Positions 23,557-24,334 of a stretch of 33,972 bases of DNA are shown in pieces. Numbering within the stretch: the first letter of the stretch is position 1; each line of letters starts with the position of its first letter. Under the pieces are notes generated by a model that did not search any database, was not told the origin of the DNA, and was given only the letters and a program-made list of their open reading frames with translations. This stretch comes from Patescibacteria group bacterium (GTDB lineage Bacteria > Patescibacteriota > Minisyncoccia > UBA10092). The translations under genes and the position numbers were made by a program. The DNA lies in assembly GCA_018826255.1 (NCBI GenBank), contig JAHJZO010000042.1, forward strand, positions 1 to 33,972, in the 5' to 3' direction.

Positions 23557-23637
23557 GCTTGAATTATATCAAATTTGCGCATCAAAAGCAATAAGTGTTG
23601 CGGGGGTTGGATTTGAACCAACGACCTCAAGGTTATG

Positions 23638-24300
23638 CTTACTCTCTACAGCTTCCGCTGCTCCGCCATAATGGCGAATTTGGAGTCTGGACTTTCTCTT
23701 CGCCCCCTATAAATATAGGTTGGGCGCCTGCCGTTAAGTCTCTACACCTTTCCATCCTTTTGATATCAGGAGGACTTGGCTCGGGATTGCCCATTTTGGG
23801 TTTCCCCGAATTTGACAGGTTATCACGCGCGAATTTCTTCGCGCGCAGCCCATTGCAAAATTAAATCCCAAGCGTCGCGATAATCTGCCGAGAGAGGTTT
23901 TCTTTGACGCTTCTTTTCCTCAACAAAATGGATAACACTGCCGTAGGCGATAAACGCCTCAATGGGTAAAACATAAAATATGTTTGGCCCATTTAGATAA
24001 ATTACGGCAAAGTCAAAATCGGATTTTTTGTATGGTTCGCGCAACATAAGGCGTCTATTTGTCTTAGTTCTGCGATTATCTACAACAAAATTTCCTGACT
24101 TTTTATCCAACCATGCTGATTTGATTTGGATTTTTACCAGCTTGCCCCTTACATCCAAAACTAAATCATATGGAAGCCGATCGCCTAAAGGTTTTAGTAC
24201 TGCCCAGCCGTGTTCTAAAGTCCTCATAATCACGGCCTGTTCAGCTATGTCTCCTTTAAGTTTTGTATCCATTATTCAGGATTTTAATTTTGCGGAATCG
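23638..24300 (-). ncRNA. Group I intron (tRNA-type, IC3-like) with internal homing-endonuclease ORF
   Basis: Conserved elements AAATTCGGGGAAACCC (P), GGCAATCCCGAGCCAAGTC (Q), GGTGTAGAGACTTAACGGC (R), GAGAAAGTCCAGAC (S), P9 hairpin CGCCATTATGGCG, terminal G. Confidence 0.92.
23823..24272 (-). CDS. PD-(D/E)xK group I intron homing endonuclease (I-Ssp6803I-like)
   Basis: 149 aa MDTKLKGDIAEQAVIMRTLEHGWAVLKPLGDRLPYDLVLDVRGKLVKIQIKSAW...; PYD...QIK catalytic pattern; lies entirely inside the intron. Confidence 0.9.
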   Translation of the reverse strand: MDTKLKGDIAEQAVIMRTLEHGWAVLKPLGDRLPYDLVLDVRGKLVKIQIKSAWLDKKSGNFVVDNRRTKTNRRLMLREPYKKSDFDFAVIYLNGPNIFYVLPIEAFIAYGSVIHFVEEKKRQRKPLSADYRDAWDLILQWAAREEIRA

Positions 24301-24334
24301 AGCCTTGCGAGCTACCAGGCTGCTCTACCCCGCA

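Follow-up and report, generated by a model that had tools for sequence, protein, structure and literature searches.

The window, the whole 33,972-nt stretch of Patescibacteria DNA analysed here, carries on its minus strand an initiator tRNA gene split by a group I intron, and the P1 loop of this intron holds an open reading frame (ORF). The features referred to below are the following:

24301..24333, minus strand: 5' exon of the initiator tRNA gene (anticodon CAU), ending in GCAAGGCU / GCAAGGCT; from the sequence and the intronless initiator tRNA of the same genus.
23638..24300, minus strand: group I intron of 663 nt, with CG as its first bases and G (omega G) as its last; from RF00028 and intronless tRNA homologs.
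24276..24293, minus strand: 5' strand of the P1 extension and, at the same time, leader immediately before the ATG of the ORF; from the duplex, the fold and covariation.
23823..24272, minus strand: ORF of 149 codons in the P1 loop, for a PD-(D/E)XK homing endonuclease of the I-Ssp6803I family; from PF11645 and PDB 2OST_A.
23855..23871, minus strand: 3' strand of the P1 extension, in the WDLILQ codons, assigned a dual protein and RNA role; from pairing and the protein alignment.
23847..23852, minus strand: internal guide sequence UGGGCU, the 3' strand of P1, in Trp-Ala codons and forming the U.G at the 5' splice site; from conservation of GGGC.
23825..23846, minus strand: P2 hairpin of 9 bp with a GAAA tetraloop, spanning the codons of AREEIRA and the T of the TGA; from covariation and a GNRA loop in 43/43 introns.
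23823..23825, minus strand: TGA stop codon, whose T is the 3' partner in the first pair of P2 (G.U); from the sequence and a comparison of stops and readthrough in homologs.
23638..23822, minus strand: remainder of the ribozyme, from P3 to P9, lying beyond the window's ORF and read through by the ORFs of many homologs; from the Rfam alignment and stop positions.
23594..23637, minus strand: 3' exon of the initiator tRNA gene, reading CAUAACCUUGAGG and beginning CATAACC at 23637; from the sequence and same-genus homologs.

The intron matches Rfam family RF00028 with 64.8 bits (E 1.9e-14, cut-off 50) over model positions 1-253, a match that covers the conserved core P3-P9. Since L1 holds the ORF, the model's own P1 is set locally (from 23892), and the pairing with the exon was derived separately. 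The exon junction is fixed by same-genus genomes that carry the initiator tRNA gene without the intron; there, GGTAGCTCGCAAGGCT (also given as GCAAGGCT) is joined directly to CATAACCTTG. The insertion point lies in the anticodon loop, splitting the initiator tRNA (CAU anticodon) after U33. Exon 1 ends in GGCT at 24301 and the intron starts with CG at 24300, as a sequence-only reading of the locus had proposed; both the letters and the minus-strand coordinates were verified. A pattern search of the window's own genome found no uninterrupted initiator tRNA anticodon arm. The initiator tRNA of this genome therefore appears to depend on splicing, and accurate removal of the intron is probably essential to it. 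Two more group I introns occur in this genome of 0.54 Mb (L002, G000:C29:5028-5259, and L003, G000:C28:15268-15482), one in a tRNA-like gene preceded by an ORF and one apparently in 23S rRNA.

The product of the ORF matches PF11645 (E 4.4e-48) and the solved enzyme I-Ssp6803I (PDB 2OST_A; E 7.9e-60, residues 2-145). Its closest named relative is found in Candidatus Azambacteria (L005/L011; 87% protein identity), and relatives within its family and order contributed only one further copy. Scanning bacterial genomes with the protein as query supplied the best 80 of 103 loci, and further genome and viral searches added more; after deduplication, at least 43 tRNA-fMet introns whose P1 loop holds an ORF were available. 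Their hosts belong to the Patescibacteria, Nitrospirota, Bacteroidota, Cyanobacteriota, Chloroflexota, Omnitrophota, Acidobacteriota and other groups. Phage and viral collections yielded freestanding or distant nucleases only, and no second intron set. In the viral contigs L006, L091, L092 and L093, a freestanding nuclease gene immediately precedes a tRNA-fMet gene without an intron, and in three of them (L006, L091 and L092) the last codons of the ORF overlap the first bases of the tRNA (ATTGCGGGGTGGTAG in L006).

The sequence-only reading had placed the ORF in the P1 loop and assigned the guide and P2 to its last codons. In the window, TGGGCT does lie at 23852..23847 within Trp-Ala codons and is followed by the hairpin GCGCGCGAA-GAAA-TTCGCGCGT at 23846..23825 and by TGA at 23825..23823, the guide and hairpin together translating as W-A-A-R-E-E-I-R-A. 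The same order of guide and hairpin is found in the 43 ORF-containing introns. The guide reads GGGC in all of these and in 34/34 introns that lack an ORF at the tRNA-fMet site. Although the guide search demanded GGGC, no locus with exon 1 upstream and the core downstream was dropped for want of it, so that its occurrence in 43/43 introns is a result. The spacing between guide and core is 36-37 nt in all 43 introns, and the 34 ORF-less ones show the same distance; in most loci the guide lies exactly 421 nt past the start codon. At the 5' splice site the U of GGCU stands opposite the G of GGGC in 43/43 introns, and the window's intron ends in ...GUAAG. The proposed P1, exon GGCU paired with the guide and a U.G at the splice site, is thus borne out by position and conservation, on which its identity rests because no P1 covariation was detectable in the homologous introns: exon and guide are both nearly invariant, and native and swapped strands bind equally well (-6.60 vs -6.62 kcal/mol).

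Covariation in homologous introns had been suggested as a check on P2, and P2 covaries in all nine of its pairs. It takes the form 9+4+9 in 43/43 introns with no indels, double changes are seen in 9/9 pairs, and 95.3% of cells are paired across the 43 introns. P1 and P2 together give a covariation score of 0.637, against 0.214 when shuffled (0/500) and at most 0.18 in slid versions, and 95.2% of their cells are paired, against 22-45% on sliding; the P2 strands bind with -10.58 kcal/mol in their native combination vs -3.14 kcal/mol when swapped between introns, with 0/2000 permutations as good. Because the homologs are related, these shuffle tests overstate independence. Of dinucleotide shuffles of the window's ORF, 0.3% contain a 9-bp hairpin capped by a GNRA loop. 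The loop is GNRA in 43/43 introns, and its codon specifies E (GAAA, GAGA), V (GUAA) or A (GCAA), the reading frame of the loop being shifted in L086 and L090. The loop starts with a codon, so the residue follows the GNRA type, and what looks like a conserved amino acid is conservation of the RNA.

The structural overlap is larger than the earlier reading had it, for a long P1 extension lies directly 5' of the guide. The duplex between 24293..24276 and 23871..23855 amounts to -17.3 kcal/mol and is also present in the unconstrained minimum-energy fold. It covaries in homologs, where native strands bind with -14.27 vs -9.13 kcal/mol for swapped ones (0/2000). Even among introns encoding the same tripeptide, native binding of the P1 extension is stronger than permuted (-10.15 vs -6.68, 0/5000); the choice among synonymous codons therefore tracks the non-coding 5' strand of the respective intron. 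The protein alignment shows almost no variation at W135 and L137, and by these comparisons the WDLILQ codons are the place where protein and RNA constraints clearly meet. The initiation region is paired in 38/43 introns. In L082, L086, L088, L089 and L090 the ORF starts only 2-8 nt past the splice site, so that both strands of the P1 extension are coding and the start region pairs with the last codons. Several ORFs begin with GTG or TTG, start codons that would suit low expression.

It had been supposed that the 3' end of the ORF was under both protein and RNA constraint. This stands for the upstream WDLILQ codons but not for 23825..23852, where residues vary and the protein is free. Between the window and its sister L005, the nine guide and P2 codons differ by 3 nonsynonymous and 0 synonymous changes, as against 16 nonsynonymous and 31 synonymous ones over codons 1-132. 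Of the three changes in the guide and P2 codons, two keep a P2 pair (G.U to A-U and G-C to G.U) and one disrupts the pair that closes the loop. Broken ORFs keep the guide and P2 as well (L068 and L090, with early stops, and L072, where a stop stands in place of the W codon), P2 of L034 contains an in-frame TAG, and in L086 the guide is read in another frame. On this comparative evidence, 23825..23852 is under RNA constraint alone, with the RNA setting the codons; apparently conserved C-terminal motifs of these nucleases (VKFGEA, KET) are translated ribozyme.

The freedom of the protein in this stretch invites the objection that the nuclease stops earlier or that its tail is never made, the overlap being an open frame that happens to cross the RNA, with no dual coding. 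The tail does seem dispensable: relatives without a C-terminal extension exist and, judged by sequence, keep the conserved residues, several freestanding relatives terminate at about residue 139 to 143, before the guide/P2 tail, and the stop of L034 falls inside P2. A published survey also cautions that such overlaps rest on predicted ORF ends (PMC3073962). We nevertheless consider this explanation unlikely. The first in-frame stop past the nuclease domain is the TGA at 23825..23823, and a ribosome that makes the domain must therefore read the guide and P2; moreover, the WDLILQ codons upstream are conserved in the protein and lie within the P1 extension.

The claim about guide and P2 finds a second, independent set of introns in the 34 ORF-less ones at the same tRNA site, where both elements are kept (279/306 P2 cells paired). 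The search for these introns demanded a GNRA loop, not P2 pairing. The persistence of guide and P2 in homologs without an ORF is contrary to a coding coincidence. In the ORF-less introns (upstream in L016-L074), GCTT is found at -22 from the guide in about 25/34 cases, in the register of the ORF's GCTTG codons, and the ORF-less intron of L047 retains TGGGATTTGATTTTGCACCGGGCT; the shared register and this possible remnant suggest that the ORF-less introns may once have carried an ORF and lost it. Many cyanobacteria have a tRNA-fMet intron that lacks an ORF and, just downstream of the tRNA, a nuclease gene. Freestanding genes beside an ORF-less intron occur in L016, L019, L020, L039, L042, L051, L059, L062 and other cyanobacterial loci (match 1501 onward). 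The freestanding C-terminus of L020, GKESCVRSPVQFQEAGF, is an eroded copy of translated P2-P3-P4 (compare GETRMRSPVKFGEA in the intronic L022), and in 16 freestanding eroded tails P2 pairing is down to 85/144, with GGGC absent in all. Such decay outside the intron is as predicted by selection for the RNA inside it, and the cyanobacterial freestanding genes with eroded P2-P3-P4 tails appear, from these remnants, to have left an intron.

These observations weigh heavily against two further explanations. That the hairpin is kept by the protein, as a C-terminal AREEIRA-like motif, or as a transcription terminator rather than as P2, is highly improbable: its codons are translated in the annotated frame and its E residue looks conserved in the protein alignment, but this E is the GAAA tetraloop and becomes V with GUAA and A with GCAA, the residues encoded by the stem change freely without loss of pairing, ORF-less introns and broken ORFs retain the hairpin, which decays in nuclease genes outside introns, and no T run follows it. 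Nor was TGGGCT the only good partner for exon 1, as had been claimed, since TGGGCC at 23991..23986 (intron position 310) also forms six pairs, among them a U.G at the splice site and one G-C in place of a G.U. That this sequence is the true guide and the reported element a coding coincidence is scarcely credible, however, because the reported guide is the element found in all homologs, keeps a constant distance to the core in the 43 introns and in the 34 ORF-less ones, where no ORF middle exists, and immediately precedes P2, as guides do in other group I introns, whereas TGGGCC sits in mid-ORF and belongs to no shared RNA element seen here.

The reading that places the ORF in the P1 loop, with the guide and P2 in its last codons, is thus supported, and comparison among the homologs identifies the guide, P2 and the P1 extension as RNA elements encoded by the end of the ORF. 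The best explanation, which we hold with high confidence, is a mobile group I intron with an ORF that fills its P1 loop and whose 3' end serves as P1 extension, guide and P2. Such an intron would have interrupted the initiator tRNA gene after U33, and the 3' end of its ORF would have been extended into, or have always contained, the RNA that closes the P1 loop. By general group I biochemistry, GGCU of exon 1 would pair with the guide, the U.G would mark the 5' splice site, an exogenous G would attack there and the GNRA loop of P2 would dock on the core. Once about 420 nt of the ORF had been transcribed, the helix between the leader (24293..24276) and the last codons (23871..23855) would hide the start site, so that translation of the nuclease would be confined to the interval before folding of the ribozyme; ribosomes on the tail would be incompatible with a splicing-competent P1/P2. 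We infer this timing switch between translation and splicing from base pairing alone.

The position of the stop codon varies. It lies at +8 to +134 nt from the guide in the 40 intact ORFs, of which 16 end exactly with P2 at TGA (+26) and one ends inside P2; the remainder run past P2, some of them through P3-P6. The outcome goes with the 3' base of the first P2 pair. Where this is U, the codon is TGA (13 cases as G.U, 3 as A-U); where it is C, the codon is CGA, always as G-C; G or A gives other codons. As G.U and G-C both keep the helix, extension of the ORF can cost the RNA nothing. By parsimony, on a weakly resolved protein tree, the state has changed between stop and open at least nine times. 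A published proposal of "core creep" holds, as its first prediction, that introns differ in how far the ORF extends at its 3' end (PMC3073962), and the varying stop positions and repeated changes fit this prediction. Under the same proposal the nuclease would be able to do without the extension. It is conceivable, with the balance about even, that the first P2 pair makes the stop codon an evolutionary switch, that core creep is a repeated, RNA-neutral one-base event, and that some cyanobacterial genes that left the intron carry translated core as a fossil C-terminal tail. If so, U (as G.U or A-U) would end the ORF with P2, and C would strengthen or keep the helix, turn the codon into CGA and let the ORF run on through P3-P6. 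No description of the P2 stop switch, of synonymous covariation in the P1 extension or of fossil tails was found in a limited literature search, which covered the Synechocystis system through PMC3073962.

In genes nested within self-splicing introns, the same letters must satisfy a ribozyme and a protein. Across this family, drawn from many phyla, comparison indicates that it is the RNA that dictates the codons in the overlap. With 43 ORF-containing introns, 34 ORF-less ones and freestanding copies, the origin of the overlap becomes testable by comparison, and the family offers an unusually good test of core creep.

ORFs that run into intron cores have been described in general (PMC3984707, PMC1995217). 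The closest known system is the tRNA-fMet intron of Synechocystis sp. PCC 6803, which encodes I-Ssp6803I (Bonocora and Shub 2001, cited in PMC3073962) and is listed in Table 1 of PMC3073962 as a PD-(D/E)XK case with the ORF inserted in P1 and a 61 nt P1/P2 overlap. The window's intron shares with it the host gene, the type of site, the nuclease family, the ORF in P1 and the P1/P2 overlap, and the copy from Synechocystis salina (L085) aligns with the window's intron over guide, P2 and core. It differs in its Patescibacteria host, in a diverged nuclease and in P2 and P1-extension sequences that are equivalent though not the same; the guide is read as Trp-Ala in the window and as Lys-Gly-Ala in the S. 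salina copy. The T4 td intron with I-TevI (PMC3073962) is similar in that the 3' end of its ORF lies in ribozyme helices and its ribosome-binding site is sequestered by RNA structure, but there the nuclease is of the GIY-YIG type, the ORF occupies loop P6 and overlaps helices P6a and P7, and no guide lies within it. In the Synechococcus rDNA introns L1917, L1931 and L2593 (PMC1995217), the ORF likewise extends from a peripheral loop into the core, a dual role that the authors state; they differ in having LAGLIDADG nucleases and an rRNA host gene, the overlap of L1917 reaching from P6 to P9. The P1/P2 overlap is therefore an arrangement already known from one cyanobacterium, of which the intron in the window is a further case.
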